Assembly: GCA_016234405.1 (NCBI GenBank)
Contig: JACRCC010000043.1
Span: 1-32,928, forward strand
Direction: 5' to 3'
Origin: Deltaproteobacteria bacterium
GTDB taxonomy: Bacteria > Desulfobacterota > GWC2-55-46
DNA: 32,928 nucleotides
Shown: piece by piece, positions 12,497 through 31,295 of the stretch
Layout: each line of letters opens with the position of its first letter
How positions within the stretch are numbered: the stretch's first letter is position 1
The notes under the pieces: model-generated
What the model was told of the DNA's origin: nothing
Seen by the model: only the letters and a program-made list of their open reading frames with translations
The model's database searches: none
Made by a program: the position numbers and the translations under genes

Positions 12497-14053
12497 TTAA
12501 CGCATCCCTTGCCCCGTGTCCCGTTTTTTCCTTGCGCTCCTCCACCACAAAAATTCCACCCCTGCTATCACAAGGCCTATCACAATGGGCCAGACGTATA
12601 CCGTGCTTTTCGTCGCCGGCTGCATGAGCAGCCAATGCCACGTCGTCATCACGTGTTTTGAGCCTTTTTCCTGATTTGAGCCGTCCCACGCGGCGAATGC
12701 AATTGGTATGAATTTGCCTTCACTGAACTGTATGTCCTTTTCCGCGTCCTTGGTCGTTAAAGCCCTTTTCATAACCACGCGCCACGTGCCGTTGTCGTAA
12801 ACGCCCGTTGCCTTAAGGCCGACGGAGGCGGGGTCCCTTGTCTGCGCGTCCTTGAACCCCTTTGCATCCAAGAGTCTGACGGTCTGCCCGGCCCCCGCCG
12901 CAGACTCACTCTGCCAGAACCAGACGTTGACCGGATTAGCGGCGTCTCCCATTCCGAAATATGGTTTTTCACCTTCGGCGAGATTTCTCGGCCACTGCAC
13001 CGCCACGCCGTCAACGAAGACATCGCCGTCGGCAATCTCAATGGCCTTTGCGTCCCCGGGCAGACTTCGCGTCCTGTCGTCCCATTCAAGGAGGATGGCA
13101 ATCTCATCGGAGTTATAGACCGCACCCACGGAGACGGTATCGAGCGAAGGCGTAAAGTGCCTCTCCTGCGCGATTATCTGAGGCACGAGATAAAAACTCG
13201 TTACAGACGCGGCGTTCCATGCGGGGTCGTCCGTTTTATCCGGCAGCGCGCCTTCGATCCTCATGGCCTTTATCACGGTGTTGTCCGTGGGTTTTTTGCG
13301 CGGCGCATCGAGGGAGTTGACGTAGACGGCCGCGTCCCATCTTTCTTCATCGCTGAGTTTCTTGTTGCTCCCCGGGTCCGCGAAGCTCGGCATCTGGGTG
13401 CCTGGGATGCCGACGGTTACGCGGGTGTAAATATCCTTCACGTCGTTGCCGACCCTGAAACTCCACGCCTTCGTGAGATTCCGGGGCCACGTCCGCGCCC
13501 CCCAATCGTCCTTGAGTTTTTTCGTGCCGCTGCCTTTGCCCTCCCGTCCGTGACACTCCGCGCACCTGTTCTCGAATATTTTTTTACCGCGCTCAATGCC
13601 TTCTTTCGTGGACTTTGGCGCATTCGCGGTGTTTATCGCCGGCTTCTGAGGCGTGCCAAGTTCGGCGAACTTTTTTATGTAAGCGGTAACGTCGGCTGCA
13701 TCCTTATCGCTGAGGATATCCGACCAGCCAGGCATTGACGTCCCGTTCATGCCGGTCCAGCCTGAGATGCCGTTGTGCGAGGGGTCGCCCTTTATCATCC
13801 TCATAAAATCTTCATCGGAGGGAACCATCTCGTCAAAGGGCGTGGACTTCCACTTATAAACCCCTGCGGTAAAATCCCTTGGAGGCGGAGAGAGAAAACT
13901 GGAGGCAGGCCCGTCGCCAGCACCAGTCTCACCGTGGCACCAGACGCAGCGCTTTTCATAGACACCTTTACCCGCCTCAACGCTGCCTCCCGCAAAGGTA
14001 ATACTTGGCGCGGCAGAGAGCAGCAAGGCCAACAATGGCGCATATATTTTCAT
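12497..14053 (-). CDS. Dihaem cytochrome c with ethylbenzene-dehydrogenase-gamma-like domain (module 1)
   Basis: A 518-residue exported, membrane-anchored protein. A signal peptide (1-21) precedes two c-type haem sites, CVWCH (36-40) and CAECH (164-168), with likely sixth ligands in TSMPGW and TQMPSF. Residues about 260-480 resemble the haem-b-binding gamma subunit domain of ethylbenzene dehydrogenase, selenate reductase and nitrite oxidoreductase. Methionine 368 (FGMGDAANPVNVW) and lysine 429 (WRVVMKRAL) are in place as the expected haem-b ligands. A C-terminal helix (about 487-504) with a basic tail anchors it. Electron transfer in the periplasm is the expected role. It is the last gene of module 1, four bases behind the previous stop, and is paralogous to 25161-26768. 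No molybdenum enzyme subunit lies nearby. Confidence 0.88.
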   Translation of the reverse strand: MKIYAPLLALLLSAAPSITFAGGSVEAGKGVYEKRCVWCHGETGAGDGPASSFLSPPPRDFTAGVYKWKSTPFDEMVPSDEDFMRMIKGDPSHNGISGWTGMNGTSMPGWSDILSDKDAADVTAYIKKFAELGTPQKPAINTANAPKSTKEGIERGKKIFENRCAECHGREGKGSGTKKLKDDWGARTWPRNLTKAWSFRVGNDVKDIYTRVTVGIPGTQMPSFADPGSNKKLSDEERWDAAVYVNSLDAPRKKPTDNTVIKAMRIEGALPDKTDDPAWNAASVTSFYLVPQIIAQERHFTPSLDTVSVGAVYNSDEIAILLEWDDRTRSLPGDAKAIEIADGDVFVDGVAVQWPRNLAEGEKPYFGMGDAANPVNVWFWQSESAAGAGQTVRLLDAKGFKDAQTRDPASVGLKATGVYDNGTWRVVMKRALTTKDAEKDIQFSEGKFIPIAFAAWDGSNQEKGSKHVMTTWHWLLMQPATKSTVYVWPIVIGLVIAGVEFLWWRSARKKRDTGQGMR

Positions 14054-14057
14054 ACGT

Positions 14058-14858
14058 CTATCCGTCCTTCTTTGAATTAGCGCTTACCCATGATCTGGGC
14101 GCGTTGTCCGTATAATCGTATATAAAGAGTATCGCCTTCCATACCTCATCCTCGGAGAGGAAGGTGTGCCACACGGGCATCGCGGAGAGCCACGGGGTCG
14201 CCTCTTTAGGCAGGCCCGGGCCGCCGGTTGAAATCCTCCAAAATACAAATGATTCTTGGAGCTGCGCAATCGTGTCCTTGCCCTGAAATGGAAGCGGGAG
14301 CGGATTGAAGCCTTGCGCAAAATGACCCTTGCCGTCGAGCTTGTCGCCGTGGCAGAAAAAACAGTTCTTGAAATAAACTGCCCCACCCTCCTTCACCGCC
14401 TCTTTGAATTTTTCAGGATTTTCCGTCTGAAGTTTCCTGAACGGATTTTCAAGGGTTGCAAGGTTGAAGGTTTTGTCGTACGCCTTCATAATCGTCGGCG
14501 GCGCGGGGTGCGTGGCCCTCAACTCCACCGGGGCATCAAACCCGGGTTTGATCTGGTTATACGTTATGAGCGCGCCAACGATAGGCGCTATGACGAAGAC
14601 CGCGTTCCTTATAATCTTTTTTGAGGGGTCTTCCACAAGCGCCTTTATCGGCGCAAAAAGCCCCTGCGTGGATTCATCGGTTGAGGTCATTACAAGAAGC
14701 GCGGCAACTACGGCGAAGAACATGTACATCATTATGAGGCTTCCGGGTATCGGCTTATTCATAAACCAACCCGGGGACTTAAATATCACGTAGGCTATAA
14801 ACACGATGACGACGAACCAAAGCAGCTTTGCGGGGTTTGCCCCATCAGGTTTCTTCAT
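14058..14858 (-). CDS. Three-helix membrane protein with one c-type haem (module 1)
   Basis: A 266-residue protein with three hydrophobic segments (about 12-26, 39-57 and 84-101) and then a periplasmic domain with one c-type haem site, CFFCH (166-170). The segments FVFWRISTGGPGLPKEATPW and SAMPVWHTFLSEDEVW are shared with the module 2 paralogue at 26838-27908 and supply a likely methionine ligand. It probably passes electrons within a membrane complex. An upstream TTG (14864) is possible, but the ATG at 14858 has a GAGAGG site at suitable distance. It lies 11 bases after the preceding gene and four bases before the next, so the four genes look like one transcript. Confidence 0.87.
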   Translation of the reverse strand: MKKPDGANPAKLLWFVVIVFIAYVIFKSPGWFMNKPIPGSLIMMYMFFAVVAALLVMTSTDESTQGLFAPIKALVEDPSKKIIRNAVFVIAPIVGALITYNQIKPGFDAPVELRATHPAPPTIMKAYDKTFNLATLENPFRKLQTENPEKFKEAVKEGGAVYFKNCFFCHGDKLDGKGHFAQGFNPLPLPFQGKDTIAQLQESFVFWRISTGGPGLPKEATPWLSAMPVWHTFLSEDEVWKAILFIYDYTDNAPRSWVSANSKKDG

Positions 14859-14869
14859 CCCCAACCTCT

Positions 14870-15685
14870 CTATTTGGATTTGGCCAGATAGTCCACGATA
14901 ACCTGCAACTCGCCGGCCGTCATCTTGTCCTTGAAGTCCTGCGGCATCATGCCGGGCGGAAAGCCTGGCGCTATGTCGGCGTTCGGGTCAAAGACGGCTC
15001 TGCGCAGATAATCGGCGTTCTTCTTCGCGCCTATCTTCGTAAGGTCTGGCCCGATAGCCCCCTGCTCTCCGGCTATCTTGTGGCATAAGCCGCAGCCGAA
15101 TTTTTTCACTATTTCCGCGCCCGTCTTGGCCGGAAGGGTGGCTGCCTGCGCGGAATCCTTACCCTCTGCCATTGGAGGACCTTTGGGTATCTCGACCGTC
15201 ACCTCAGCGCCGCCCAAATTCTGAAGATATGCAATAACGGCCTTTATCTCCACGTCATTAAGTCCGATAGCGCCCTCAGATATGACGGGCATGGGGCTGA
15301 CCGTGTCGTTGCTGCCCGTCACACCGTAACCGGCAACCACATAAGCCGAGGGCTTGCGCATGGACTCCTCTATATACCCAGCCAAGTCCTTTGCCCCGCC
15401 CTTATACCTTGTGTCTTTTAGCCTCTCACCAATTCTACCGGCTACGCCGTCAAGGAGGGGCGCCCTTTTTACGACTGGGTTGTGACAAAGCGTGCACGTC
15501 CCCTTCCCGTGAAATATCTTATCCCCCAAGGCAATAAACTGCTGTATGGTCATCTGAGCGAGGTCAATCGTCTCTTCCGCCGGCACAGGCGCGGAGTTCA
15601 TGGGTGGAATATAGTTGGTCGCAAAAAGGGTATAGATGCCCATCGTCAGGAGGCTGAATATAATCACCTTAAAAAATATATTCAT
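14870..15685 (-). CDS. Membrane-anchored dihaem cytochrome c (module 1)
   Basis: A 271-residue protein with one N-terminal membrane helix (about 4-22) and two cytochrome c domains with haem sites CTLCH (64-68) and CGLCH (198-202). Possible methionine ligands stand in the SPMPVI segment and in GMMPQDF near the C-terminus. It should sit on the periplasmic face and carry electrons to or from the CydA-like protein. The start codon overlaps the stop of the CydA-like gene by four bases (ATGA), with GGAGGG before it, which shows translational coupling. It is the counterpart of 27908-28915 in module 2, which is longer. Confidence 0.9.
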   Translation of the reverse strand: MNIFFKVIIFSLLTMGIYTLFATNYIPPMNSAPVPAEETIDLAQMTIQQFIALGDKIFHGKGTCTLCHNPVVKRAPLLDGVAGRIGERLKDTRYKGGAKDLAGYIEESMRKPSAYVVAGYGVTGSNDTVSPMPVISEGAIGLNDVEIKAVIAYLQNLGGAEVTVEIPKGPPMAEGKDSAQAATLPAKTGAEIVKKFGCGLCHKIAGEQGAIGPDLTKIGAKKNADYLRRAVFDPNADIAPGFPPGMMPQDFKDKMTAGELQVIVDYLAKSK

Positions 15686-17565
15686 CTAATCCCTCCCCCC
15701 TCTTTGGGGTTTTTGGCGTCTGACCCTAAAGGCAGCGGTTTGTCTTGTTTTTTGGAACTCAGGGCGCTCAGCCAAAATATGAAAATGACCATAGCCATAA
15801 ATATTATCGCGGCAGCCGAGACCGTCTTCGCTGCTGAGGCTATGGTCAGCGTGTAGGCGTTAACGGATGCGTCCCTCATAACCGAGTAAACGTGCCAGTG
15901 CTGCCTTATGGACGACCTGATAAAACCCATAAGCCCCATGAGCCACGTGAAAGAGACCGCCAAGAGGAAAAGCGCGTACTGGCTCCTTTGAGGAATACCC
16001 CCCCAGCGCAGCTCGCCAACGTCCTTTGCGCCCTTGAACATAAAAAAATCAATCACCATGCAGGCCGCGATGACGGTTAAAGTGGATGCGACCTGCGGGA
16101 CGGAAGAAGCAACCTTGTAGACCGTGTTGGTGAAGTACCCGTAGTAGACGCCGAGGAAAACGATATTCAATATCGCGCCTGCGAATACGGCGGCCTGCGC
16201 GGCGCGGCCGAGCGGCGCCCATGAGACTACGGCGATCTTATTGGCCCTCCTGTAGAGGAGAAAGGAAAGAAACGTGAATATCAGCATGATGTTGACGGCC
16301 GTATTTTTGGCAGGCATGATGCCCAGAGGCCCGAGGAACGGATGATACTGGCCGCCCAGGGCCTTCAATTCCCAGGGCTTGAGTATGAGCGTGTGCGGCG
16401 TAAACCAAACGAGGAAACAGACGACTATCACGGCGGCGATGTATTTTATATACTTCGTATACCTATACGCCCCAGGACTTCTTTCCATGCCGCACCAGAG
16501 GTAGTAGTTGGCGGAAAGAAAAAGCGCGCCTATGATGACCGCCTGAGTGATGAAGAGCCACGCGAATGCCCCGCCCATGAGCGTTATCCCCATCTGCTGG
16601 CTGTAGGCGTATATCTCGGCGGTTAGCCAATAGCCGGCGAACGGAAGCGGCAGGAGCGCGGATATTGCGATGAGGTTGGCGGTATATCCCATCCAATCGT
16701 AATGCGCCCTGTCGGAATCGGACCTTGCGCTTAAAAACCTGTAGGCCGCATAAGCCCCGACTATTGAGCCGCCGAACGCGATGTTGGCCACGAACCTGTG
16801 CAGGTTTATCGGATTCCACAGGTGATTGTGTATCACGTGCCAGATGTTGCCGTCGAAAACTCCCCCCGCGTCAACGCCCGACGGGGACATCATAAATGTG
16901 ACCCATGCGTTGGCCAAAAACATGAGGGTAGTGCCGACCGCGTTAAGGAGCAGCCCGATCGTGAGGTGCGCCCATTTACTGAACCCGCGCTCCATCGCGT
17001 GCCAGCCGTAATAATAAATATAGAGCGTCGCGCTTTCGGCGAAAAAAAGGAGCGCGTAGAGCAGCATCGTCTGCCCGAAAAGCCGCGTCATATATCTCAT
17101 TAAATCGGGGTAGAATACGAAGAGGCTGAAGGCGAGGAGACCTCCGATGAGCGCCGTGACCGAGTAGGCCGTGAGCGAGACCTTTATGAACTCGTAGGCC
17201 ATCTTGTCGTAACGCTCGTCCTTTGTCGCCATGCCCACGGCCTCGATGATGAAGACGAATATCGGCACGGCGAGAACAAAGGCCGCGAACCAGAGGTGCA
17301 ATTGCGCCGCCATCCATACAAAGACCCTGCTGTTTATCCCCATGACGATTGGATAATCTTGCGCCTTGAGTTTCGGGGCCGGGGGATGGGTATATGTTTC
17401 CTCATGCGCAACGGGGCTGACAGCGTCGGTCCCGGCATAAGCCGCCGCAGGGCTGAAACTTGCGGAGAAACCCGTATTTAAAAATGCGGGGAAAAACATG
17501 ACGGACAGGACGAACAAAAAAACTGCCTTTCCTGCCGTTCTCTTTTTCATCAGGCATGAAACCAT
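15682..17565 (-). CDS. Divergent cytochrome bd-like oxidase subunit (CydA-like), module 1
   Basis: A 627-residue integral membrane protein with about 13-14 helices, longer than classical CydA (about 9 helices). Matches to CydA: His90 (AAQLHLWFAAF) for the haem d ligand, Glu177 (LFFAESATLYIYYYGW) for the conserved FFxES helix, and Glu317 (PLPFAGYWLTAEIY) for the haem b595 ligand. Differences: the first conserved glutamate of that helix is Tyr170; the haem b558 histidine position is alanine, with His256 four residues earlier; and the quinol-site GRQPW motif and Q-loop are absent. No CydB gene is near. The N-terminus adds a signal-like helix and a short periplasmic stretch. Oxygen reduction fed by cytochrome c, not quinol, is my inference from these changes and the neighbours. 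Divergent bd-like proteins of this general kind are known from Nitrospira. Confidence 0.85.
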   Translation of the reverse strand: MVSCLMKKRTAGKAVFLFVLSVMFFPAFLNTGFSASFSPAAAYAGTDAVSPVAHEETYTHPPAPKLKAQDYPIVMGINSRVFVWMAAQLHLWFAAFVLAVPIFVFIIEAVGMATKDERYDKMAYEFIKVSLTAYSVTALIGGLLAFSLFVFYPDLMRYMTRLFGQTMLLYALLFFAESATLYIYYYGWHAMERGFSKWAHLTIGLLLNAVGTTLMFLANAWVTFMMSPSGVDAGGVFDGNIWHVIHNHLWNPINLHRFVANIAFGGSIVGAYAAYRFLSARSDSDRAHYDWMGYTANLIAISALLPLPFAGYWLTAEIYAYSQQMGITLMGGAFAWLFITQAVIIGALFLSANYYLWCGMERSPGAYRYTKYIKYIAAVIVVCFLVWFTPHTLILKPWELKALGGQYHPFLGPLGIMPAKNTAVNIMLIFTFLSFLLYRRANKIAVVSWAPLGRAAQAAVFAGAILNIVFLGVYYGYFTNTVYKVASSVPQVASTLTVIAACMVIDFFMFKGAKDVGELRWGGIPQRSQYALFLLAVSFTWLMGLMGFIRSSIRQHWHVYSVMRDASVNAYTLTIASAAKTVSAAAIIFMAMVIFIFWLSALSSKKQDKPLPLGSDAKNPKEGGGIR

Positions 17566-18115: not shown

Positions 18116-18484
18116 TTAGTTACCCTTGCACTTGCAAAGTTTACGGAGATAGTCCTTGAGCGCGGCAACCTCCGCATCGGTCAGCGTCTTGCCGAAGGGC
18201 GGCATCATCGTGGATTTGCTCGTGGCCGCGCCCCCGCCCTTTATGACGTTTATTATGTCCTGGTCCGACAACTTGCTCATCTCCACGGTGTTGGTATGGT
18301 TCCTCGGGCTTACGGGCTGACTTTTCGTGGCGTTTGGCCCGTCGCCCTTGCCTTCAAGCCCGTGACACTGCGCGCAGTAAAACTTGTAGTTGGCCTCGGC
18401 GGCCGCGGCTTGCGCGTCCGACATACGCGAGAGCGCTAAAAACGCCGACAACGCTGCAACCGCGATTAATGTCTTTCTAATCAT
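18116..18484 (-). CDS. Small monohaem cytochrome c
   Basis: A 122-residue exported cytochrome c: signal peptide (1 to about 27, MIRKTLIAVAALSAFLALSR), haem site CAQCH (37-41) followed by GLEGKGDGP as in class I cytochromes, a likely methionine ligand in MMPPFG, and a C-terminal helix (EVAALKDYLRKL). It is a probable soluble periplasmic electron shuttle. An unusual CKC near the C-terminus adds two cysteines. The ATG at 18484 is chosen because AGGAGG stands before it and the export signal starts there. It follows the dihaem cytochrome gene on the same strand and precedes the tiny membrane proteins. Confidence 0.92.
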   Translation of the reverse strand: MIRKTLIAVAALSAFLALSRMSDAQAAAAEANYKFYCAQCHGLEGKGDGPNATKSQPVSPRNHTNTVEMSKLSDQDIINVIKGGGAATSKSTMMPPFGKTLTDAEVAALKDYLRKLCKCKGN

Positions 18485-18537
18485 TTGCTTATTACCTCCT
18501 GCGAGGGGATAACCCTCCCTCGGATATTTTCGCTTTA

Positions 18538-18555
18538 TCAGGGCTAAAGCCCTGA
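18538..18555. repeat. Hairpin repeat TCAGGGCT-AA-AGCCCTGA
   Basis: A perfect hairpin with 8-bp arms and a two-base centre in the gap between two cytochrome genes. The same core recurs at 32603-32620 and, in altered form, in the array at 12424-12496. A second imperfect stem (GAGGG/CCCTC, 18508-18526) lies between it and the next ribosome-binding site. Confidence 0.75.
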
Positions 18556-18580
18556 GTTGGCGCCGCTTCACTTTGAACCC

Positions 18581-19255
18581 CTACTTTAATCCGGCCACGA
18601 ACTCGGCTAAGTTTTTCAACTCCGAATCGCTCAACGCCCCAGTGTAGACCGGCATATCCTTCACCGGTTTGAAGACCTTGGGGTTCGTGAGATAGGCGTA
18701 TATCCAATCTGGATTGAGCCTGTCGCCTGCGCCTACGAGCGTCGGCCCAGTGAGTCCTCCGACGACCCCGGCGCCTTTTTTCACCTCGTGGCACCCGTAG
18801 CAGCCCTGCTTCTTCTCAAAGACAACCCTGCCCTGCGGGCCGCTCTTTGGCTGAATGTTAGCCGCCTTAACATCCGAGGATTTCAGCGACATGAGATAAT
18901 CGCTCACGTCCTTTGCCGCCTTCGCGTCAAGTTTTGCGTGGTTTGCGCCGTTCTTTTTCGTCAGAGAATAAAACTCCATCGGCCTTATGGGTTTTGGGTC
19001 TTTTAGCCATTTTTCAAGAAATTCCTTCCGGAACTTGCTCCCTGCATACCAAAGCTCAGGGGCTTTCTTGGTGAGCATGTCCTCAATCGTCTTCTCTTTA
19101 GCTGGGCCTTGAATCTGATGGCATCCCCCGCAGTTCTTGGAATCGAAGATCCCCTTGCCCTCCGATACCCCGGCAAAGGCGATGGCCGCAAAGGCCAATA
19201 CACCCGCCGCAAATATTGAAAATACCGCGATACTTGAAAACACACTCACTCTCAT
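18581..19255 (-). CDS. Dihaem cytochrome c
   Basis: A 224-residue exported protein with a signal peptide (1 to about 28) and two cytochrome c domains, haem sites CGGCH (42-46) and CYGCH (152-156). The first domain carries KPIRPMEF and the second KDMPVY as likely methionine ligands; the GLTGPTLVGAGDRLNPDWIY segment is typical of cytochromes found with respiratory complexes. Role: periplasmic electron transfer. The start ATG at 19255 has GGAGG six bases upstream; a longer frame upstream is not supported. It lies 35 bases behind the thioredoxin-like gene. Confidence 0.92.
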   Translation of the reverse strand: MRVSVFSSIAVFSIFAAGVLAFAAIAFAGVSEGKGIFDSKNCGGCHQIQGPAKEKTIEDMLTKKAPELWYAGSKFRKEFLEKWLKDPKPIRPMEFYSLTKKNGANHAKLDAKAAKDVSDYLMSLKSSDVKAANIQPKSGPQGRVVFEKKQGCYGCHEVKKGAGVVGGLTGPTLVGAGDRLNPDWIYAYLTNPKVFKPVKDMPVYTGALSDSELKNLAEFVAGLK

Positions 19256-19290
19256 GTAATGCCTCCTTTTACCGTCTGTAATCTGTGTAA

Positions 19291-19761
19291 TCACTGCCGA
19301 AGGACTTCTTTCAACCCTTTTTCAATCTCACCCTTTTCGACAAACCCCCTGAATATCCGCCTGATTATCCCTTTCTTATCTATAAGAAAGAGCCACGGCT
19401 CCCCTATTACGCCATAAGTCTCGCCGAGGGCAACCGACTCGCTCACCGGCCCCCAGAACTTCGATGCCCTGTGCTTAGTAAGGACTCCGGCTGCGTCTTT
19501 TTCGTATTGCTCCTGCAAGTCGCTCACACTCCTCCATACCCTCTCGCAATATACGCAATGGTCAGGATTGCCGAACATGAGGAGTATGACCTTGCCTTCT
19601 TTATTGGCCTTTTTCAATTCTTCCGTATTCAGCGGGGCAGACGACCCCAACCCGACCGCTGGAGCGCCCTCAGGTAATCCCCTAAGTCCGGCCTCAGATG
19701 ACAACGGCAGAAAATGTATTAAGGCAACCGCGAATATTAGAAGCGGTAATTTTTTAATCAC
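19291..19761 (-). CDS. Exported thioredoxin-like protein (CVYC)
   Basis: A 156-residue protein with a signal peptide (1-24) and a thioredoxin fold: VILLMFGNPDHCVYCERV carries the redox pair Cys69/Cys72, and GEPWLFLIDKKGIIRRIFRGF provides the cis-proline side of the fold. It is expected to reduce or oxidise thiols in the periplasm, for example during cytochrome c or copper-site assembly. It starts with GTG overlapping the stop of the NirK-like gene (GTGA), so the two are translationally coupled. It is one of three related proteins within 2.5 kb. Confidence 0.85.
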   Translation of the reverse strand: MIKKLPLLIFAVALIHFLPLSSEAGLRGLPEGAPAVGLGSSAPLNTEELKKANKEGKVILLMFGNPDHCVYCERVWRSVSDLQEQYEKDAAGVLTKHRASKFWGPVSESVALGETYGVIGEPWLFLIDKKGIIRRIFRGFVEKGEIEKGLKEVLRQ

Positions 19762-20735
19762 TTCACTTTCCCTTTTACGTCCAACACAAGGCCGATTTCC
19801 TCATTGAGGGACGTGTCCTCTTGAATTTTTTTTACATCATATTTTTGTCCGTCATGTCCGTGACCCGACGCCTCCGCGCCGCCCTTTTCCGCGGCAGACG
19901 GCCTTTCGACGTTGTGATATAGAGGCCATTTTCCCTCGACGGCGGCAATGGAAATATCATGGCTCTTGCCCGGGTATATGGTCAGGGTCTCTTGGGTCTT
20001 AGGCTCTGAAATAGGATACCCGTCCTCATGGGTGACAAGGAAACCTTTGGGAAATCTCAGCTTGTGCGGGAGATACCCGATGTTGGCTATCCTCACACGG
20101 ACCCGTTCGCCGTCCTTTGCATCCATTACTTGAGGGGCGTGTGCGGTAACGGCCTTATTATTTATCGTCGTTATGTCGTTATCCATAATATTTGCAGGAT
20201 GGCCTTGCCCGTGACCGCCGGAATCGGCCCGGCTGTTCCAGTCGCTTATGACATACGCGAACTCCCTGTCAAAACCCTTTTCTTCCTTCGCCTCCACTAT
20301 GAAGAGGCCGAACATCCCCCGATTGAGATGCTCAGCCATTTTCCAACTGCAGTGATAGAGATGCGTTCCGGCAGGCTGCGCCTCAAACTCATAGACGTAT
20401 TCGTAACCCGGGTCGACCGGCACCTGCTCCTGCAGCGCAATTCTATTGTCTACACGGAGGCCGTGAAAAAACATGCCGTGCTTTGCCCCGCTCATATTCC
20501 TCAGCTTAATCCTGACGGTATCTCCCTCTTTGACCCTGATGACTGGGCCCGGAAACTCGTTGTTGTACGTCCATACCGGAAACTTCACGCCCTTCAATTC
20601 AATCTCCCCTTCCGTTACCGTGAGGGTAAACTCCTTTACCTGCGCGCCGGAAATAGACGGGACAGTCAAGATTAAGGAAATACATATAAACCAATGACGC
20701 AAACGGAATAACGCGCCGTTCTTAAAGTCTTTCAT
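19758..20735 (-). CDS. Two-domain cupredoxin protein, NirK-like
   Basis: A 325-residue exported protein with two cupredoxin domains. Domain 1 has a full type 1 copper site: His86, Cys129, His136 and Met141 (GTHLYHCSWKMAEHLNRGM). His91 and His128 match the type 2 copper ligands of copper nitrite reductase, and domain 2 offers His224, His236 and His274 (LYHNVER). Placing type 1 copper only in domain 1 is the NirK arrangement. However, the catalytic aspartate of NirK is phenylalanine here (HGMFFH instead of HNVDFH), so nitrite reduction is doubtful. It could be a divergent two-domain multicopper oxidase. An upstream GTG (20741) overlaps the previous stop; the ATG at 20735 has GGAG at better spacing. 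Confidence 0.82.
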   Translation of the reverse strand: MKDFKNGALFRLRHWFICISLILTVPSISGAQVKEFTLTVTEGEIELKGVKFPVWTYNNEFPGPVIRVKEGDTVRIKLRNMSGAKHGMFFHGLRVDNRIALQEQVPVDPGYEYVYEFEAQPAGTHLYHCSWKMAEHLNRGMFGLFIVEAKEEKGFDREFAYVISDWNSRADSGGHGQGHPANIMDNDITTINNKAVTAHAPQVMDAKDGERVRVRIANIGYLPHKLRFPKGFLVTHEDGYPISEPKTQETLTIYPGKSHDISIAAVEGKWPLYHNVERPSAAEKGGAEASGHGHDGQKYDVKKIQEDTSLNEEIGLVLDVKGKVK

Positions 20736-20737
20736 CT

Positions 20738-21229
20738 TCACTTCTCCATTGCGTCGAGGGTCGTCTCAAGCTCATCTTTCGTAAACTCGCCGATGAATAT
20801 CTTTTTGAGTATTCCATTTTTATCGATTACAAACGTCCATGCCTCGCCCATTGTCACGAAGCCGAAGAGCCTTTTTAACGTGACGGTCTCCTCATCCGCC
20901 GCGCCGAGCATGTCCTGCCCTCCCTTTACGACATAGACCGTCCCGCCCCCGCGTGAAACCGCTTCCTTTATAACCCCTTCAACCAAATCGCAGCTTCGGC
21001 ACTGCATCGGGTTTGACAATAATAAGAGCACGACTGCTTTACCTGCGACGTGAGCGTCTTTGATTGAACCCTCAAGAGGGGCCTTTTCGCCGACTTTAAC
21101 CTTAGACGTCTTCAAGACCTCGGTTGAGGCATAGAGGTCATCCGGCAAGACGGTGAATATATTTACCTGCGCCAATATAAACATCGCCGCAAGGAGGTAA
21201 ATGTTTTTTAGGAAACTCCCCTCTTTCAT
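20738..21229 (-). CDS. Exported thioredoxin-like protein (CRSC)
   Basis: A 163-residue protein with an N-terminal hydrophobic signal or anchor (about 9-26) and a thioredoxin-like fold. The redox pair is Cys77/Cys80 in LLLLSNPMQCRSCDLVEG, and GEAWTFVIDKNGILKKIFIG matches the later part of the fold, with alanine where the sister proteins have proline. Its role may be thiol or copper handling for the neighbouring cupredoxins. Its start overlaps the stop of the CPWC gene by four bases (ATGA) and its stop overlaps the NirK-like gene start region, marking a tight operon. Confidence 0.83.
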   Translation of the reverse strand: MKEGSFLKNIYLLAAMFILAQVNIFTVLPDDLYASTEVLKTSKVKVGEKAPLEGSIKDAHVAGKAVVLLLLSNPMQCRSCDLVEGVIKEAVSRGGGTVYVVKGGQDMLGAADEETVTLKRLFGFVTMGEAWTFVIDKNGILKKIFIGEFTKDELETTLDAMEK

Positions 21230-23100: not shown

Positions 23101-23144
23101 CTTTCTTAGCCTCCTCATTGATTGTTATGGATCCCCGCACAAAA

Positions 23145-23903: not shown

Positions 23904-23962
23904 TTGATATGATTCCTCCTTTTTGTTTTTAATCCTTGCGCCGATACCGGACATCCCGCATC

Positions 23963-25144
23963 TCACATCCCGAAACGTTTCTTGGCCTCATCCACTATCT
24001 CGTCGGTTATCTCCCTGTGTCCTTTTTCCGAGGCAAAGTCCTCGATGGCCTTTACGGCCATCCCCCTCGCAAAGACCGGTATCTTGTCGAGCCTTGCAAT
24101 CGCCGACGGGGTCCACTCAAGCGTTATCCCGCCTTGAGAGGACTTATCCTCTATTTTGAACTCGCCGCTTGCCACAAAGACGTTTGCGGGCGCAAGTCTC
24201 AACACGTTTTCCGCCGTATTCCCCATCAACGGAATAGCGGCCTTGTGCAGCCCATGACGGCCGACAACCGCAAAGGATGCCTTACGTTCATGCACGGCCT
24301 TTAAAATCTCGTTGAATGACTTGCCGGCAAGAAGCGTGGTCTTTATCTCAACCCCTCTGGCCTTTGCAACCTTATAGGCCGTGTCAAGATGCGCTTGATA
24401 AAGTTTAGCAAGCCCCTTGTCTATAATCTCATCATGGAGTTTTTCCTGCTCCTTGAACTTAAAAACCTTCGCGGCCTCCTCGGAGAGAGCGCCCGCGATA
24501 TTTCTGAAGGCGACCTGATGAAAATACGGGTCAAAGGCGGCCACGGCCTCCACCTCTCCGCCGAAGACCTTTTTGAGACCTATCGCCGCCATCAGGGCAG
24601 CGTATGAACACGGACTGCCGTCTATCCCAACGAGGATCCTGTCGTCAAATGAAGGCGTTTTAAGGACGAGCATATCCGCGCTTATATGCCTTGCCACGCG
24701 CTCGCATACGCCGCCAAGGAGGCTTGATTCGACGGTTCCCATGCCAAGCCCGCCCATGACAACTAGGCCGTAGCCGCCTTCAGTTGCCTCCGCTATAAGC
24801 TCAGAATAATTCTTGCCTTCCCTGTTTTTTCTCTTGATATTACCTGTGCCCTTAGCGGCCGCGAGCGCCTCGAACTTGTCAAGGTAAGAATCCGATATTA
24901 TGCCCAATCCCTTCGCTATCAAGCTCTCATGTATCGTCCGCTGCCGCGCAAGCACGGCCTCGGACTGGTATTCCTGAGGCAGCCCTGTCTCCATATCCAT
25001 GAAGCGCGACTCGTGTAATTTGGCCGCATAGACGTGGCACCCCGTTATCTCGGACATGAAGACGCCGCCTATGGCCAAAGCGGCCTCGGCGCCCCAGTCC
25101 GAGTACTTCGAGTTATCGAGGGCAGTTAATATCTTTCCGAACAT
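23963..25144 (-). CDS. Tandem universal stress protein with C-terminal PCP_red domain
   Basis: A 393-residue cytoplasmic protein. Two universal-stress-protein domains follow each other (about 1-163 and 166-326). Each starts with a typical strand (KILTALDNSKYSDWGAEAAL; RILVGIDGSPCSYAALMAA) and has a nucleotide-binding type loop (VMGGLGMGTVESSLLGG; VVGRHGLHKAAIPLMGNTAE). Residues about 339-393 (LEWTPSAIARLDKIPVFARG...EITDEIVDEAKKRFG) match the PCP_red domain seen also at the end of the radical-SAM protein at 10870. It sits between the second cytochrome module and the copper proteins, 16 bases behind the cytochrome gene, so it is cotranscribed. A sensor or regulator role is inferred only from the domains. 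Confidence 0.88.
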   Translation of the reverse strand: MFGKILTALDNSKYSDWGAEAALAIGGVFMSEITGCHVYAAKLHESRFMDMETGLPQEYQSEAVLARQRTIHESLIAKGLGIISDSYLDKFEALAAAKGTGNIKRKNREGKNYSELIAEATEGGYGLVVMGGLGMGTVESSLLGGVCERVARHISADMLVLKTPSFDDRILVGIDGSPCSYAALMAAIGLKKVFGGEVEAVAAFDPYFHQVAFRNIAGALSEEAAKVFKFKEQEKLHDEIIDKGLAKLYQAHLDTAYKVAKARGVEIKTTLLAGKSFNEILKAVHERKASFAVVGRHGLHKAAIPLMGNTAENVLRLAPANVFVASGEFKIEDKSSQGGITLEWTPSAIARLDKIPVFARGMAVKAIEDFASEKGHREITDEIVDEAKKRFGM

Positions 25145-25160: not shown

Positions 25161-26768
25161 TCATTTCTTTCTTTTTCGGAGGATAAACCAGTACTCGCCG
25201 AACCCGGTCAAGGCAATGCCCATGAAGGCGTAGATATAAACCCATGCCGGCGTTCCTGTTTCGAGGAAAACATAGTGCCATGAAGACAGGCTCATGATAA
25301 GCCCGTGCTCGCCGTTAGACCCGTCCCACGCATTGAGCGCAAACGGTATGAATTGGCCTTTTTCGAACTGGATATCGTTCTTATCCTTCGTAGAGAGCGG
25401 CCTTTTCATCACGACCCGCCAGCGTCCGTCCTTCCATGCGGACTTGGACAAAACCTGCCGCTCTTCGGGGGCCTCGGCCTTTAGCGGCTGATTGAACCCC
25501 CTGGCCACTGCCTCCTCCACGCCGGGTTTTCCCTGCGCCGCCAAGTCGGCATTCCAGACCCAGAGGTTTACGGGGTTGCTTGAATCGCCCCTGAAAAATG
25601 ACGGCTTTTTCGCCCCGCCCGATACGGTAACGGGGAACTGCAACGCTATCGAGTCCCTGAAGTTGCCGGGCTTTCTCGGAATATCCTCCCAGCTTAGATA
25701 GCCCTTGTAAGCCGGAGGAACATTGTATTCCAATTCCTGCTTATGCAGGGTGTCCTCGAACCTGTCGCTCCACTCCATGAGAAAGGCAATCTCAGTGGGG
25801 TTATAAACGGCCTTTATCCCAACGAGTTCAACCGAAGGGTTCTCCCATCTGGGATTCGCTATGACCTGCCCCGCAAGGCTCACGTCAATGCCTTCCGTTG
25901 AATTCCATAACGGCGCGTCCACGGTGAACGGCAGGTCGCCGCTTACAAACTTTGCCTTGAGCACGGAGGCGCTCAAGACCTCTTTTTTCTGGAGCGAGAC
26001 CACGTAATTCGCCAAGTGCCATCTTTCTTCATCTTTTAACGAATCTGCGAACGAGGGCATCGGAGTGCCGTTAAGTCCCGTGTTGAATCTCATGTAAATA
26101 TCGTCGGCGGCATTGCCGGCCTTGTACCTCCAGCCTTTCGTAAGGTCAAAGGGAAGGATGGGGTCTTTCCTGAACTTGTCCTTGAGCTTGGGCGCGTTTG
26201 GACCATTTCCCGTGCCGCTCTCGCCGTGACACTCCCAACATTTCATTTCCCCGAATATCTTACGGCCTTTCTCTATGCTCTCGGACGACGATTGTATCTT
26301 GGGGGCGGTCTTCACCACCTGCTTATAAGGGTCTGAATCCGGTTCAGTGAACCCCTTGAAAAAGGTCTTGATGTAATATATTACCTGCCATCTCTGCTCC
26401 TCCGTGAGGCCGTTCTTGCCGCTTTCTCCGCCAAACGTCTGCATCGCGGTCCCGGGGATGCCTCTGCTTATAGTTCTAAAGAGGTCCTCGTCGGTCGGAA
26501 GCTCGCCGCTTTGGGTGGTGCGGAATTTATAAAGCCCAAGCGTGAAGTCCCTCGGCCTCGGCATAAGCTGATAAGCCGCAGGGCCGTCGCCGTCGCCAAG
26601 CAGGCCATGACAGAAGCTGCACCTCTTGAAATATACCGCCTTACCCTTTTCAAGCATCTCAGGGGTCGCCGACGGTTTTGCCTTTGACGGCAGGTCCGAG
26701 GCAGCCGCTGCGCTTGCCAGCGCCGTAAAAAGCAATATCGTTGTCAACGCCTTCACGATTTCCTTCAT
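25161..26768 (-). CDS. Dihaem cytochrome c with ethylbenzene-dehydrogenase-gamma-like domain (module 2)
   Basis: A 535-residue exported protein with the same architecture as 12497-14053: signal peptide (1-23), two haem sites CSFCH (50-54) and CWECH (177-181), an ethylbenzene-dehydrogenase-gamma-like domain (about 270-505) and a C-terminal anchor helix (about 508-529) with the basic end RKRKK. The likely haem-b lysine is present (Lys455, WRVVMKRPL), but the methionine seen in the module 1 protein is arginine here (Arg393, FFRGDSSNPVNLW). Haem b may be absent or held differently. It is the last gene of module 2 and is followed by the stress-protein gene after 16 bases. Confidence 0.88.
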   Translation of the reverse strand: MKEIVKALTTILLFTALASAAAASDLPSKAKPSATPEMLEKGKAVYFKRCSFCHGLLGDGDGPAAYQLMPRPRDFTLGLYKFRTTQSGELPTDEDLFRTISRGIPGTAMQTFGGESGKNGLTEEQRWQVIYYIKTFFKGFTEPDSDPYKQVVKTAPKIQSSSESIEKGRKIFGEMKCWECHGESGTGNGPNAPKLKDKFRKDPILPFDLTKGWRYKAGNAADDIYMRFNTGLNGTPMPSFADSLKDEERWHLANYVVSLQKKEVLSASVLKAKFVSGDLPFTVDAPLWNSTEGIDVSLAGQVIANPRWENPSVELVGIKAVYNPTEIAFLMEWSDRFEDTLHKQELEYNVPPAYKGYLSWEDIPRKPGNFRDSIALQFPVTVSGGAKKPSFFRGDSSNPVNLWVWNADLAAQGKPGVEEAVARGFNQPLKAEAPEERQVLSKSAWKDGRWRVVMKRPLSTKDKNDIQFEKGQFIPFALNAWDGSNGEHGLIMSLSSWHYVFLETGTPAWVYIYAFMGIALTGFGEYWFILRKRKK

Positions 26769-26825: not shown

Positions 26826-26837
26826 CTTTTCGCGTCG

Positions 26838-27908
26838 TTAATGTTTCTCCGGCATCCTTGGGGTCTTTTGCGCCATGTCGTACTCGGCAAACATTATCTT
26901 CCACCTCTCGTCTTCCGTGAGGCTCTGATTCCATGCGGGCATGGCGGAATCCCACGGGGTCGCTTCGATAGGCAGGCCCACGCCGCCCGTTGAAATCCTC
27001 CAGAAGGTGTAGCCCTCCACGATAGTCTCGATCGTGCCGTTGTCCGTGAAGTTTATGGGTCTCAGTTTGAAACCGTCGGCCATCGGGCCGTCCCCTGATA
27101 CGCTGTCGCCGTGGCACGGGCGGCAGTTCATGGCATAAAGCGCGCGGCCCTCAAAGAGATTTTTCTCCATGAGCGCGGCCTTTGCAATTTCTTTGCTTAC
27201 GTTCCCCGACTTAAGCCCGCTCAAAAATTTTACCATCTGCTCCGACGGGATAAAACCAAGGGCATGGCTCTCCGGGTTGGCCTCCTTCCACTTGGCAACG
27301 TCCGGACCAACCTGTGAGACGAATTCAACATGGCCGGACTTGGCCTCTTCTATGAATGCGTTTACGTTTGCGTCCTCAGGATTTGCGAACGGGTTTTTCA
27401 AGTCCTCCATCTTTTTCGGGAAGTTCGACGAAGGGTGCTGTATCCTCAATGATAGAGGGGCGAGGACATTAGGAGACCAGTGGTCGTAGACCAGCCATCC
27501 GACCAACAAGGGGATTATGACGAGCGCCGCGCCCCTTGGCAGCGTCCCGTAAGAGCCGTCGAAAAATGCCTTTACCGGCCTTGTGAAATCACTAAACCTC
27601 TCGTCCGAAAAGGTAACGTAGAGGGCCATCGCCGCAGCCGCGAGCGCCATATAAAAAAGCATAAGCGTGCCCGGGACGGGAAGCGCAAACGGCATCCCGG
27701 TAATCCGCCTTGACGCAAACGGGATGAGCCATTTAACCGCTCCGTAGATGACGGCCATTGATATGCAGATGCCCCAAAAAAAACCCGGCTTCTTGGATGC
27801 GGCGGCGGGGGCGGAAGGGTCCGCCGCCCCGCGCCCCGCGCCTCGGTTCACGGCCTCTTTAAGCATCTTGACGACCGACGGTAATATTCCTTTTTTTCCC
27901 TCGCCCAT
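26838..27908 (-). CDS. Three-helix membrane protein with one c-type haem (module 2)
   Basis: A 356-residue counterpart of 14058-14858. An extra N-terminal cytoplasmic stretch rich in Ala, Gly and Pro (about 20-40) precedes three membrane segments (about 43-62, 78-99 and 127-141). The periplasmic part has one haem site, CRPCH (262-266), and the shared TFWRISTGGVGLPIEATPW and SAMPAWNQSLTEDERW segments. It is about 90 residues longer than its module 1 paralogue, mostly at the N-terminus and between helix three and the haem. Its ATG overlaps the stop of the preceding gene (TGATG) with GGAGG before it. Confidence 0.88.
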   Translation of the reverse strand: MGEGKKGILPSVVKMLKEAVNRGAGRGAADPSAPAAASKKPGFFWGICISMAVIYGAVKWLIPFASRRITGMPFALPVPGTLMLFYMALAAAAMALYVTFSDERFSDFTRPVKAFFDGSYGTLPRGAALVIIPLLVGWLVYDHWSPNVLAPLSLRIQHPSSNFPKKMEDLKNPFANPEDANVNAFIEEAKSGHVEFVSQVGPDVAKWKEANPESHALGFIPSEQMVKFLSGLKSGNVSKEIAKAALMEKNLFEGRALYAMNCRPCHGDSVSGDGPMADGFKLRPINFTDNGTIETIVEGYTFWRISTGGVGLPIEATPWDSAMPAWNQSLTEDERWKIMFAEYDMAQKTPRMPEKH

Positions 27909-28915
27909 CACTTCGCCTCCCCCTTTTGCAGCAGCAGGAACGCGAGGATATCCTGATAATCCTTCACGGTCATCGCCTCAATGAGGTCTTCCGGCATAAC
28001 GCTTTTGTTCTTGTCCATTACCAGCTCTTTCATTTCTGATTTCAGGACGCGCGCCTTGACGTCCGCGTTTATGCCTATCTCAACCGATTCGGCGTCCTCG
28101 GATATTTTTACGCCCGATATCTTCCTTCCGTCGTTGTCGAACTTCTCCTTGCCGTCTTTGCCGATTACGGTATAGGTTTCGTACCCCGGCGTAAATGACG
28201 CCGCAGGCTGCAATATGGCCTCTGATATGGGTTTGACCCCTTTAAGCCCTATCGCGCTCAGGTCCGGGCCGAGGGCCTTGCCCTTGCCCTTGAGCGTATG
28301 GCAGCCCGCGCAATTCAACCCCTCGAAAAAAACCTTCTCGCCGTTGCCGGGGTCTCCGCCGCCGGCGGCGGACGCCGCGGCGATCCTGTCATAGAATTTC
28401 TTCGCTATCTCCGACGGGTTTTTGATGATATTAATATCCACGTCGCCGCCCTGGCTCTGCAGATACGAGATGACGGCCTTTATTTCACCGAGGCTCAACG
28501 ATATCGGCGGCGCGTAGACGATGGCCATTTCGTTCTTGTATCCGTCCACCACGTAGGCGCTGGGGTTTGCGAGACTCTCCGTAAGATAATCCGTTGCGGT
28601 ATACGGCAACCCCGTGGCCTTCTCGCGGGCATGCGCTCTCTCCACCGCCCTCTGGCCTATCGGAAGCGGAAATTTTTCGCCGAATTGACCGAGGTTAGGG
28701 CACCGGACGGCGCTGCCCTTGTCGCCGATGCTGTGGCACGTAAAGCACCTGCCCTTGCCCCAGAATATCGTCTCCCCGCCTTCAGGACTGATATCCACGG
28801 GCCCGCCTGCCGTCTTTTCTCCTCCCGTCAGGTTCGTCACTGCGTTGCCGATCCAAAGGAACGCCGCCAAAATGACTACAAGGAGAATAAATACCTTCCC
28901 GACAACGCTGTGCAT
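27908..28915 (-). CDS. Membrane-anchored dihaem cytochrome c (module 2)
   Basis: A 335-residue protein with one N-terminal membrane helix and two cytochrome c domains, haem sites CFTCH and CAGCH (about residues 57-61 and 202-206). The second is followed by KGKGKALGPDLSAIG, and the domain has an extra beta-rich insertion of about 50 residues (YTVIGKDGKEKFDNDGRKIS onward) before VMPEDLIEAM, reminiscent of haem-binding domains in planctomycete-type cytochromes. It is the counterpart of 14870-15685. Two ATGs stand in tandem; the second (28915) has the better distance to GGAGG. The stop overlaps the next gene. Confidence 0.9.
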   Translation of the reverse strand: MHSVVGKVFILLVVILAAFLWIGNAVTNLTGGEKTAGGPVDISPEGGETIFWGKGRCFTCHSIGDKGSAVRCPNLGQFGEKFPLPIGQRAVERAHAREKATGLPYTATDYLTESLANPSAYVVDGYKNEMAIVYAPPISLSLGEIKAVISYLQSQGGDVDINIIKNPSEIAKKFYDRIAAASAAGGGDPGNGEKVFFEGLNCAGCHTLKGKGKALGPDLSAIGLKGVKPISEAILQPAASFTPGYETYTVIGKDGKEKFDNDGRKISGVKISEDAESVEIGINADVKARVLKSEMKELVMDKNKSVMPEDLIEAMTVKDYQDILAFLLLQKGEAK

Positions 28916-28938
28916 CATGCCCTCCGTTCAATATCTGC

Positions 28939-29093
28939 ATCTCAGGGCTTAGATTAGCAATTCCTTTTCCCCCCTCCCCCCTCGCGGGGGAGATGGGTAA
29001 CGGATGTAAAGACATGCTAAGGCATGTCTTTACGGGAGGGGGCAGCCCTGAGATAACCTTTAACCCTGATAAACTCAGACCTAAAGGTCTGAG
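28939..29093. repeat. Nested inverted repeats between CydA-like gene and cytochrome gene
   Basis: The 175-base gap of module 2 is built of stems. ATCTCAGGGCT (28939-28949) is mirrored by AGCCCTGAGAT (29044-29054). Inside lie CTCCCCC/GGGGGAG around 28975-28992 and a perfect 12-bp stem GTAAAGACATGC-TAAG-GCATGTCTTTAC (29006-29033). Separately, CTCAGACCTAAAGGTCTGAG (29074-29093) is a perfect hairpin that ends at the CydA-like stop codon. Such a block would protect or end the upstream transcript and may set different levels of the CydA-like protein and the cytochromes. Confidence 0.8.
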
Positions 29094-31295
29094 CTACATT
29101 TCACCCTTCTTTTCTTCGGGCTTCTCGGCGGACGAAGCCTTGCCTTTGGCCGCGGCAAGCCCGCCGAGCCAAAACATGAAGGCCACTCCCGCAAGAAAAA
29201 CTAACACCGAAAGACCTACCATCTGCGTCATCGTAAAATTGCTCGGCGTGAACGACCACGACGACGTGTCCCTCATCACGCCGAATATGTGCCAGTCGCT
29301 CCTAAGCCCGGACCTTATGAAACCCATAAGCCCCATGTTCATGGTTATGATTATCGTTAAAAGCAAGAGCGCGTACTGGCTCCGCGTCGTCATCTTTCCC
29401 CATTTGAGTTCCCCTATGACCTTGGCGCCCCTAAAGAGAAAAACGTCAATCGCGGTAACGAGGATGAGACAGCTTATGAGCTGAAGGAACTGGGATACGG
29501 CAATATTCCGGAGAAACGGCGACGCCTTTTCCATGACCACAAAACCGTAGACGCCGAGGAAGAGCACGACGTTGAACGCCGTGATTGCGAGGTATAGACC
29601 CTGCGCCAAAACCCCGCGGTCTTTCAACGCTAGGATAACGGCCGCGACGGCCGCGGCGCACTCAAAGGTCAGCAGATAGCCTACAATCCTAAAGTAATAC
29701 GCGCGGTCCGCGGGCAGATCCATGGCCGCAGGATTAAGCCCCAACAGATAGACCGCATACTGGCCGACTAATATCACGGCGACAGCGCCCGCGAGGGTAA
29801 TGACTATCTTAGGCGCCCTTCCCTGCGCGCTTACCGGTACCCTCTCCCCTTTATTCCCCCTCCTGTACAGGAGGAAACTTACGAACGTGGAGAGTATTAT
29901 AAGATTCACGACCGCGTTTTTTGCGGGCATAAGCCCGAGAAATTTCAGCGTTGGGTGATACTGGCTCCCTCCCATCTGCGAGACCTCGGCGCCGCTTAAA
30001 GGCAGGTTGTGCGGCGTGAGCCAGACGGCGAATGATATGACGATTGCAGCGAGGATGAACTTGATGTATTTGTAATACCTCTCTGAGCCGGGTATCCTTG
30101 TCATTCCGCTCCAGAGATAATAGTTGCTTATCAAAAAGAGCGAACCTACGAGCATGGCCTGTATGATGAACGTCCACGAGAAATCCCCGCCCATCATGTT
30201 GTTGCCCATGACCGCGCTCGTGGAGTAAATCTCTCTGCCCAAATAGTAACCCGCAAAAGGCAGCGGGATAAGCCCGGCAATGGCCACAAAGTTGCTAATA
30301 TACCCCATCCAATCGTAGTGCGCCTTATCTTCCGGCGTCTTTGCGCCAATGAACTTGACGGCCGCATACGACCCGGCCACCAACCCGCCGAAGGCGAGGT
30401 TGCCGAGCATCCTGTGGATAGCCATCGGGCTTGCAAGGATATTTTCAAAGGCCTGCCATGACGTGCCTGTAATGTCTCCCTTTTCACTCACCCCGGCTGG
30501 ACCCATCATGAACCCCGCCCACGAGTTCGCCATCTGCATGATGGCAGTTCCGAAAATATTCAAGAGTATGCCGATGAATATGTGCGCGCTCTTCCTGTCC
30601 TTTATTATCAAGAGGCCGCCGCCGAGCGGCAGAAAATAGAGGAGCGTCATAAATATCCGCGTGTCGCCCCGCATCTTAGGGCCGATGCCTCCTAAGAAAA
30701 ATATGACGCCGATGAGGAGCACTGCGGCGCCCAACGCCCTAAGGACCCACCGCACCCCCTGAGGGAAAGGCTCTCCCCCCTTCAACCAACCCCATCCGTA
30801 ATAGTAAAGGTAGAGACAAAAGGTCTCGCCGAAAAAAAGTAAGGCGTAGACGAACATGACGTTCTTGAAAATGCCCGCCATATACCCCATAAACGTGGGA
30901 TAGAGCGTGAAAAGCGCGAAGGCAAGAAGCCCGCCGAAGGCCGCGGTTGTGGCGTAGGCCACGCTCAAGAGGGACGTGAACTCATAGGCCACCTTGTCGA
31001 ACTTAACGTCTTTGTTCTTCCATCCGACTACCTCAATGAGGACCGCAAAGAGCGGAACGCCCAGAACGAACGCCCCGAAAAAAAGATGCATCTGCGCCAA
31101 AAACCAGACAACCTTCCTCGAATCAAGCCCCGCAACCTGCCGGTACTCGTTAGGCTCAAGGGCATAGGCGGCGGTGGACGCCAAGAGAATAAACAGCGCG
31201 GTTAAGAACGGTCCCCACGTTCCGAGCGAAACGAAAAATCTGCTTCTTAATGATTTGTGCATCCACGCCGTTATAAGATTACAGGTATACTTCAT
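29094..31295 (-). CDS. Divergent cytochrome bd-like oxidase subunit (CydA-like), module 2
   Basis: A 733-residue integral membrane protein, paralogous to the module 1 protein but about 100 residues longer, with extra hydrophobic segments around 185-235 and 505-580. Shared key positions: His70 (AQMHLFFGAF), Glu157 (LFFGETFCLYLYYYGW), His294 (AIHRMLGNLAFGG), Glu355 (PLPFAGYYLGREIY) and the PHNL segment near 428-431. The quinol-site GRQPW motif is missing here too, and there is no CydB. By analogy it is a membrane oxidase or redox subunit served by the cytochromes that follow. GAGGTG stands eight bases before the ATG at 31295; an upstream TTG is less likely. The gene for an Rrf2 regulator lies upstream on the same strand. 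Confidence 0.85.
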   Translation of the reverse strand: MKYTCNLITAWMHKSLRSRFFVSLGTWGPFLTALFILLASTAAYALEPNEYRQVAGLDSRKVVWFLAQMHLFFGAFVLGVPLFAVLIEVVGWKNKDVKFDKVAYEFTSLLSVAYATTAAFGGLLAFALFTLYPTFMGYMAGIFKNVMFVYALLFFGETFCLYLYYYGWGWLKGGEPFPQGVRWVLRALGAAVLLIGVIFFLGGIGPKMRGDTRIFMTLLYFLPLGGGLLIIKDRKSAHIFIGILLNIFGTAIMQMANSWAGFMMGPAGVSEKGDITGTSWQAFENILASPMAIHRMLGNLAFGGLVAGSYAAVKFIGAKTPEDKAHYDWMGYISNFVAIAGLIPLPFAGYYLGREIYSTSAVMGNNMMGGDFSWTFIIQAMLVGSLFLISNYYLWSGMTRIPGSERYYKYIKFILAAIVISFAVWLTPHNLPLSGAEVSQMGGSQYHPTLKFLGLMPAKNAVVNLIILSTFVSFLLYRRGNKGERVPVSAQGRAPKIVITLAGAVAVILVGQYAVYLLGLNPAAMDLPADRAYYFRIVGYLLTFECAAAVAAVILALKDRGVLAQGLYLAITAFNVVLFLGVYGFVVMEKASPFLRNIAVSQFLQLISCLILVTAIDVFLFRGAKVIGELKWGKMTTRSQYALLLLTIIITMNMGLMGFIRSGLRSDWHIFGVMRDTSSWSFTPSNFTMTQMVGLSVLVFLAGVAFMFWLGGLAAAKGKASSAEKPEEKKGEM

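Follow-up and report, generated by a model that had tools for sequence, protein, structure and literature searches.

The DNA analysed here (the window) is a stretch of 32,928 nucleotides that makes up the whole of contig JACRCC010000043.1, in assembly GCA_016234405.1 of a Deltaproteobacteria bacterium (GTDB lineage Desulfobacterota, GWC2-55-46). Its minus strand carries two paralogous four-gene modules, module A at 31295-25161 and module B at 17565-12497, each encoding in the same order a CydA-like core related to cytochrome bd oxidases, a dihaem cytochrome c, a three-helix protein with one c haem, and a fusion of a dihaem cytochrome c with an EB_dh domain. All eight genes are open frames:

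29094..31295, minus strand: A1, CydA-like core, 733 aa (Pfam Cyt_bd_oxida_I, 2.9e-9)
27908..28918, minus strand: A2, membrane-anchored dihaem cytochrome c, 336 aa (CxxCH at 58 and 203; one N-terminal helix)
26838..27911, minus strand: A3, three-helix protein with one c haem, 357 aa (CxxCH at 263; three hydrophobic stretches)
25161..26768, minus strand: A4, fusion of dihaem c and NxrC/EbdC-like EB_dh, 535 aa (Pfam Cytochrom_C twice, EB_dh 4.9e-24)
15682..17565, minus strand: B1, CydA-like core, 627 aa (Pfam Cyt_bd_oxida_I, 8.2e-20; AlphaFold model)
14870..15685, minus strand: B2, dihaem cytochrome c, 271 aa (CxxCH at 64 and 198)
14058..14864, minus strand: B3, three-helix protein with one c haem, 268 aa (CxxCH at 168; three hydrophobic stretches)
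12497..14053, minus strand: B4, fusion of dihaem c and EB_dh, 518 aa (Pfam EB_dh 5.8e-24; Met368 and Lys466 kept)

An earlier note, made from the sequence without database searches, had described this repeated order on one strand around a copper-protein block, and the coordinates, Pfam domains and paralogue identities agree with it. Pfam places Cyt_bd_oxida_I in both cores, cytochrome c domains in the second and third members, and cytochrome c plus EB_dh in the fourth, with CxxCH motifs numbering 0, 2, 1 and 2 along the module in A and B alike (five per module). Identity between A and B is 42% for the CydA-like proteins, 31% for the dihaem cytochromes, 33% for the three-helix proteins and 39% for the EB_dh fusions. 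The overlaps or very short gaps also reported within the modules are found throughout B (-4, 5 and 4 bp) but only partly in A (175, -4 and 69 bp). From A2 through cytc1, a cytochrome c gene ahead of module B, gaps do not exceed 96 bp; the gap between cytc1 and B1 is 550 bp.

The modelled fold of B1 is that of CydA, because its AlphaFold model (pLDDT 80.7) matches solved CydA chains with Z scores of 30-33 (rmsd 3.4-4.0 over 343-360 residues, B1 residues 68-607), against 19-22 for the next-best fold family, alternative complex III. By our own count the model has 14 helices of at least 15 residues after the signal helix, which matches the 14 transmembrane helices described for Nitrospina; hydropathy by itself gives 10 transmembrane segments for B1 and 16 for A1. 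In alignment with E. coli CydA, both cores share with canonical cytochrome bd (CydAB) the N-terminal half and the equivalents of H19, E107, M393 and R448, but E99 is replaced by Tyr, E445 by Leu and H186 by Gly or Ala. The canonical haem-ligand set H19/H186/M393/E445 is thus incomplete, the first and third being present and the other two replaced. The Q-loop is missing as well: A1, B1 and a third CydA-like protein of the genome all have gaps where E. coli CydA has K252 and E257, so that the cores have no quinol site. With neither Q-loop nor CydB (see below), a canonical bd oxidase is ruled out. All three proteins share an invariant His (H294 in A1, H256 in B1) four residues before the H186 position, one helical turn ahead, which may act as a substitute ligand of the low-spin haem.

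The two copies had been thought to carry different ligand changes; this does not apply to the CydA-like proteins, whose changes are near-identical, but it does apply to the EB_dh subunits. This domain is shared with the gamma subunits of nitrite oxidoreductase (NXR) and ethylbenzene dehydrogenase (EbDH) (7b04_C, 2ivf_C), and in the latter a Met and a Lys hold a high-potential haem b (PMC8840923). Unlike those subunits, A4 and B4 have the EB_dh domain fused behind a dihaem c domain. The ligand columns, assigned by our own alignment, are taken to be the Met of an MGD..PVNxWxW motif and the Lys aligned to EbdC RKSYS and NxrC QKNIS. Both ligands are present in the window's B4 (M368, K466), whereas A4 has Arg and Ile in their place. 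Across homologues, 59 of 69 B4 proteins have retained the Met, against none of 33 A4 proteins, all of which have Arg; the second column holds Lys in 38 of 69 B4 proteins, with a well-conserved His adjacent, and I, L, V, A or M (mostly I, L or V) in A4. From this retention and loss, B4 is predicted to be able to bind haem b and A4 probably lacks it. Since the Met/Lys haem b is of high potential in EbDH, B4 would fit an electron donor other than quinol. A genome search found no EB_dh domain outside A4 and B4.

A scan with B1 recovered 80 loci in Deltaproteobacteria metagenome-assembled genomes (MAGs), Gallionella, Ferrigenium, Mariprofundus, Rhodospirillales, Acidiferrobacteraceae and a Nitrospirae MAG. 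Conservation of the four-gene order elsewhere had been set beforehand as a test, and B2-B3-B4 follow B1 in order in 57 of the 58 outside loci with room for them, which is far beyond chance. The cytochrome genes cytc2 or cytc1 lie just upstream of module B in 46 of 58 loci, module A lies upstream of B in 25 of 44, and in 29 of 45 the 3' flank includes a gene for a Usp protein with a PCP_red domain or for a radical SAM protein. The order common to many proteobacterial loci is A1-A4, cytc2, cytc1, B1-B4, Usp, radical SAM and amine oxidase; the window keeps it, with Usp, a probable copper protein (p273) and a copper/thioredoxin block inserted between A4 and cytc2, and with the radical SAM gene convergent behind B4. 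In the phylogenetic tree, the A clade (100/100) stands apart from the B clade (97/92), the outgroup branches being long. As homologues from several phyla fall in each clade, the tree indicates that A and B are ancient paralogues, and a recent tandem duplication is ruled out. An obligate CydA/CydA' pairing of A1 with B1 is likewise unsupported, since many genomes have B but no A, and G001 and G033 (89 and 85% complete) have A but no B. The Nitrospirae MAG has A, B and a third copy. A plasmid collection held no B1 relatives beyond CydA-like matches at 23-28% identity.

The window's own genome (2.04 Mb, 97.8% complete) contains three CydA-like genes, and a genome-wide PF02322 search returned no CydB. 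The earlier claim of a CydA-like core linked to c cytochromes and lacking CydB is consistent with this result, with the missing Q-loop residues and with the conserved gene order. The genome yielded no haem-copper oxidase or haem-copper-family nitric oxide (NO) reductase above the family cut-off, the one match being a 153-aa frame at 28 bits; O2 reduction by known oxidase families would therefore fall to the three bd-like proteins. NarGHJI is complete, and no NirS, no NrfA and no NirK above cut-off were found. PF00384 matches lie in three places, NarG (narG model, 1406 bits), a QrcB/ActB-like protein and an 841-aa frame taken as NuoG, among which no NXR and no IdrA/AioA- or Pcr-type subunit was recognised. 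This set of matches, with EB_dh confined to A4 and B4, rejects NXR as a partner in this genome, and the lack of a recognised IdrA-type subunit rejects iodate reduction by the organism itself. The third CydA-like gene lies on another contig (L131, C102:1184-12804), where its operon also encodes QrcB/ActB-like, FeS, membrane and c554-like proteins. QrcC-like, DsrP/QrcD-like, c-type cytochrome and Usp genes are also seen there, giving the operon the look of an alternative-complex-III-like supercluster.

Between the modules lie two multicopper-oxidase-like proteins, three thioredoxin-like proteins, one probable type-1 copper protein and two cytochromes c. These and the adjoining genes are:

23963..25144, minus strand: two Usp domains with a C-terminal PCP_red, 393 aa (Pfam Usp, PCP_red; conserved module neighbour)
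23145..23966, minus strand: p273, probable type-1 copper protein with a CarboxypepD_reg-like tail (own reading of VLHN...CDSHTHM; Pfam matches the tail only)
21823..23118, minus strand: two-domain multicopper oxidase-like protein, 431 aa (Pfam Cu-oxidase_2/_3; HxH and HCH motifs by sequence reading)
21226..21726, minus strand: thioredoxin-like protein 1 (Pfam Thioredoxin_2, 8.7e-5)
20738..21229, minus strand: thioredoxin-like protein 2 (31-34% identity to the other two; no Pfam match)
19758..20741, minus strand: mco2, second two-domain Cu-oxidase/NirK-like protein, 327 aa (Pfam Cu-oxidase_3, 1e-22)
19291..19761, minus strand: thioredoxin-like protein 3 (Pfam Thioredoxin_2, 3.7e-10)
18581..19294, minus strand: cytc2, dihaem cytochrome c (two CxxCH; conserved directly ahead of module B)
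18116..18571, minus strand: cytc1, monohaem cytochrome c (one CxxCH; conserved directly ahead of module B)
10825..12123, plus strand: radical SAM protein of the NirJ2/AhbD group with a C-terminal PCP_red (7.7e-16; convergent with module B, conserved near B)

The position of p273 upstream of module A is conserved in other genomes. A true NirK identity for mco2 was rejected, the protein scoring 77 bits against a TIGR02376 cut-off of 296 and having, by our own reading, Phe at the catalytic Asp position. The radical SAM protein scores 318 bits with TIGR04055 and 311 with TIGR04545, each below the cut-off of 500. An Rrf2 regulator is encoded at 31753-32199, 457 bp upstream of A1; IscR models score above NsrR models for it, both below cut-off, and its three clustered Cys (C-x6-C-x5-C) are spaced differently from those of IscR and NsrR. 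A gene for a SCO1/SenC copper chaperone, a hint at copper, lies inside or behind the array at L027:9041-9772 and at five more loci.

The PCP_red domain forms the C-terminus of subunit B in the dark protochlorophyllide reductase. Genes that carry it track the module across genomes: among 59 relatives, 45 have both PCP_red and a CydA-like relative, 7 have neither, and 4 and 3 are discordant (Fisher p = 9e-5, uncorrected for kinship), and 1 of 14 control genomes, Synechococcus, has PCP_red. The PCP_red genes would thus be suited to dedicated tetrapyrrole handling for the bd-like complexes. By eye, an alphaproteobacterial Usp protein (L022:15043-17199) seems to have some four PCP_red-like repeats, where the window's Usp protein has one. 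Another protein, with a lactonase-type propeller, a nos_propeller repeat and a cupredoxin domain, is encoded in the B4 flank together with PCP_red genes (L008:11135-12907, L033, L060, L063 and L084), and resembles lactonase-type nitrous oxide reductase.

The window contains no molybdenum (Mo) partner, and none of the kinds met in other genomes is recognised in its own genome. In about 15 loci the genes upstream of module A encode p273, a pair of MauG/MbnH-type dihaem proteins, a Rieske subunit and a Mo subunit, usually followed by a HEAT-repeat gene. The set corresponds to the iodate reductase genes idrABP1P2 (gene set per PMC8692401). In the three cases tested the Mo subunit scores 396-419 bits (cut-off 359); it forms a group (100/100) with the idr proteins encoded on Azonexus, Vibrio and Thiothrix plasmids, to the exclusion of AioA, with blastp identities of 51-53% to the former and 26-29% to the latter. 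The three plasmid idr clusters have no bd-like module nearby, and Idr can therefore do without it there. On contig 72 of G048, module A follows a type II alpha-beta-gamma enzyme whose nearest solved proteins are perchlorate reductase (as we read entries 4ydd and 5e7o) and EbDH.

The earlier note saw in the modules its strongest candidate for an undescribed system, which the literature contradicts: a bd-like oxidase with two c cytochromes and an alternative NxrC forms a conserved cluster in Nitrospira, Nitrospina and anammox bacteria, reported alongside NXR, sometimes duplicated with the copy a few genes downstream, and of unproven function (PMC6606698, PMC8026999, PMC3578206). That cluster and the window share a CydA-like protein that lacks the Q-loop, a pair of c cytochromes, an NxrC-like subunit, a nearby duplicate, and cupredoxins and a multicopper oxidase around them (PMC3578206, PMC6606698, PMC8026999, PMC9040806). 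The differences are that the Nitrospinae cluster is reported to have di- and trihaem cytochromes c and the window modules have di- and monohaem ones, and that the window has thioredoxin-like, PCP_red Usp and radical SAM genes attached and no NXR recognised in its genome. Gene content and the Nitrospirae MAG with three copies point to identity with Nitrospira bd-like_3 and bd-like_4, and TO_1 of Manganitrophus may be the same cluster type. The four-gene module is therefore known in kind and new in setting and partners. What is new is the ten-gene array A-cytc2-cytc1-B in Proteobacteria, the frequent position of module A behind an iodate-reductase-type Mo block and once behind a perchlorate-reductase-like enzyme, the EB_dh Met kept in most B4 and replaced by Arg in all A4, and the tracking of the module by PCP_red genes. 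Among open-licence papers we found none describing the proteobacterial A-B array, the connection with idr genes, the loss of the ligands in A4 or the association with PCP_red, and nothing on point for PCP_red with radical SAM and Usp proteins or for bd-like genes in Gallionella.

The reading that we favour, to which we give about an even chance, is that the modules encode cytochrome-c-fed, quinol-independent bd-like terminal reductases of the OR-N branch, most likely reducing O2. Oxidation of cytochrome c has been proposed for the OR-N enzymes (PMC10839748, PMC12342949), which like the modules are CydA homologues of the cytochrome bd superfamily with no quinol loop, no CydB and c cytochromes as proposed donors. 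We infer the subunit assembly, the electron path with its direction and O2 as the substrate. Each module would form one membrane complex, to which periplasmic carriers (cytochromes c, the type-1 copper protein) would bring high-potential electrons; these would pass from the dihaem/EB_dh subunit through the two membrane-anchored cytochromes c to the CydA-like core and its high-spin haem at the H19 equivalent, the site at which the small molecule would be reduced. B would be the core version, widely distributed and with an EB_dh subunit competent to bind haem b, and A a sporadic sister lacking that haem b and often encoded with a periplasmic Mo enzyme. Several points weigh against this reading. 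E445 and E99, canonical bd haem ligands, are lost, and membership of the OR-N clade is putative, the tree separating the cores from three CydA sequences on long branches. Most relatives with module B also have strong haem-copper oxidases, so that B is not needed there merely for breathing, and in the window's genome the absent oxidase genes could sit in the unassembled part of about 2%. Moreover, SCO1 and the multicopper oxidases nearby hint that copper is involved, whereas a bd core is copper-free and has no need of it.

Reverse electron transport, in which nitrite, Fe(II) or a Mo enzyme would supply high-potential electrons that are driven through the c haems uphill to the quinone pool in the manner of alternative complex III, has already been proposed for the Nitrospira/Nitrospina/anammox cluster (PMC6606698, PMC3578206). 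It would agree with the second-best fold family of the B1 model and with Gallionella, Ferrigenium and Mariprofundus among the carriers. These three are lineages known as lithotrophs. However, the CydA quinol residues are absent, no other quinone site was identified and the high-spin His of CydA is kept, and we consider this explanation unlikely. The position of module A directly behind the MauG-MauG-Rieske-Mo block in many genomes, the grouping of that Mo subunit with plasmid idr proteins and the G048 enzyme would suit complexes that feed electrons to iodate-, (per)chlorate- or nitrate-type periplasmic reductases, or clear O2, peroxide or by-products for them. Such a partnership is distinctly unlikely in view of the plasmid idr clusters that lack the module, the many genomes with B and without A, and the window's genome, where no Idr- or Pcr-type enzyme was recognised. 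Rrf2 is the superfamily of NsrR, and a regulator of this kind upstream of A1, a complete NarGHI without a haem-copper-family NO reductase above cut-off, and nitrous-oxide-reductase-like genes beside B4 in five loci would fit reduction or detoxification of NO or another nitrogen oxide. This is the least probable explanation, and a poor one: the regulator is nearer to IscR than to NsrR models, and without NirS, NrfA or a NirK above cut-off the genome has no clear source of NO.

A broader and doubtful idea is that A and B form an exchangeable respiratory platform on which NXR, iodate-reductase-type and perchlorate-reductase-like Mo enzymes dock, and which would use a non-standard haem made by dedicated genes, namely those for the NirJ/AhbD-group radical SAM protein and the stress-family protein, both with PCP_red, and for an FAD amine-oxidase-family protein.

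The papers cited above leave open what the bd-like oxidases do in nitrite oxidisers and anammox bacteria. In this genome, which has no other recognisable oxidases, the module occurs in the absence of NXR, and elsewhere it is joined to iodate-reductase-type genes; this separates its role from nitrite oxidation, and the new carriers are organisms in which it becomes testable. The predictions are a haem b in B4 and none in A4, and an unusual haem tied to the PCP_red genes. The results also bear on the published inference that each idrABP1P2 carrier likely respires iodate. Iodate-reductase-type blocks are joined to bd-like modules at L134, L153, L154, L157-L160 and L163-L170, and the carriers of both may not all be iodate respirers, as idrABP1P2 alone would imply.

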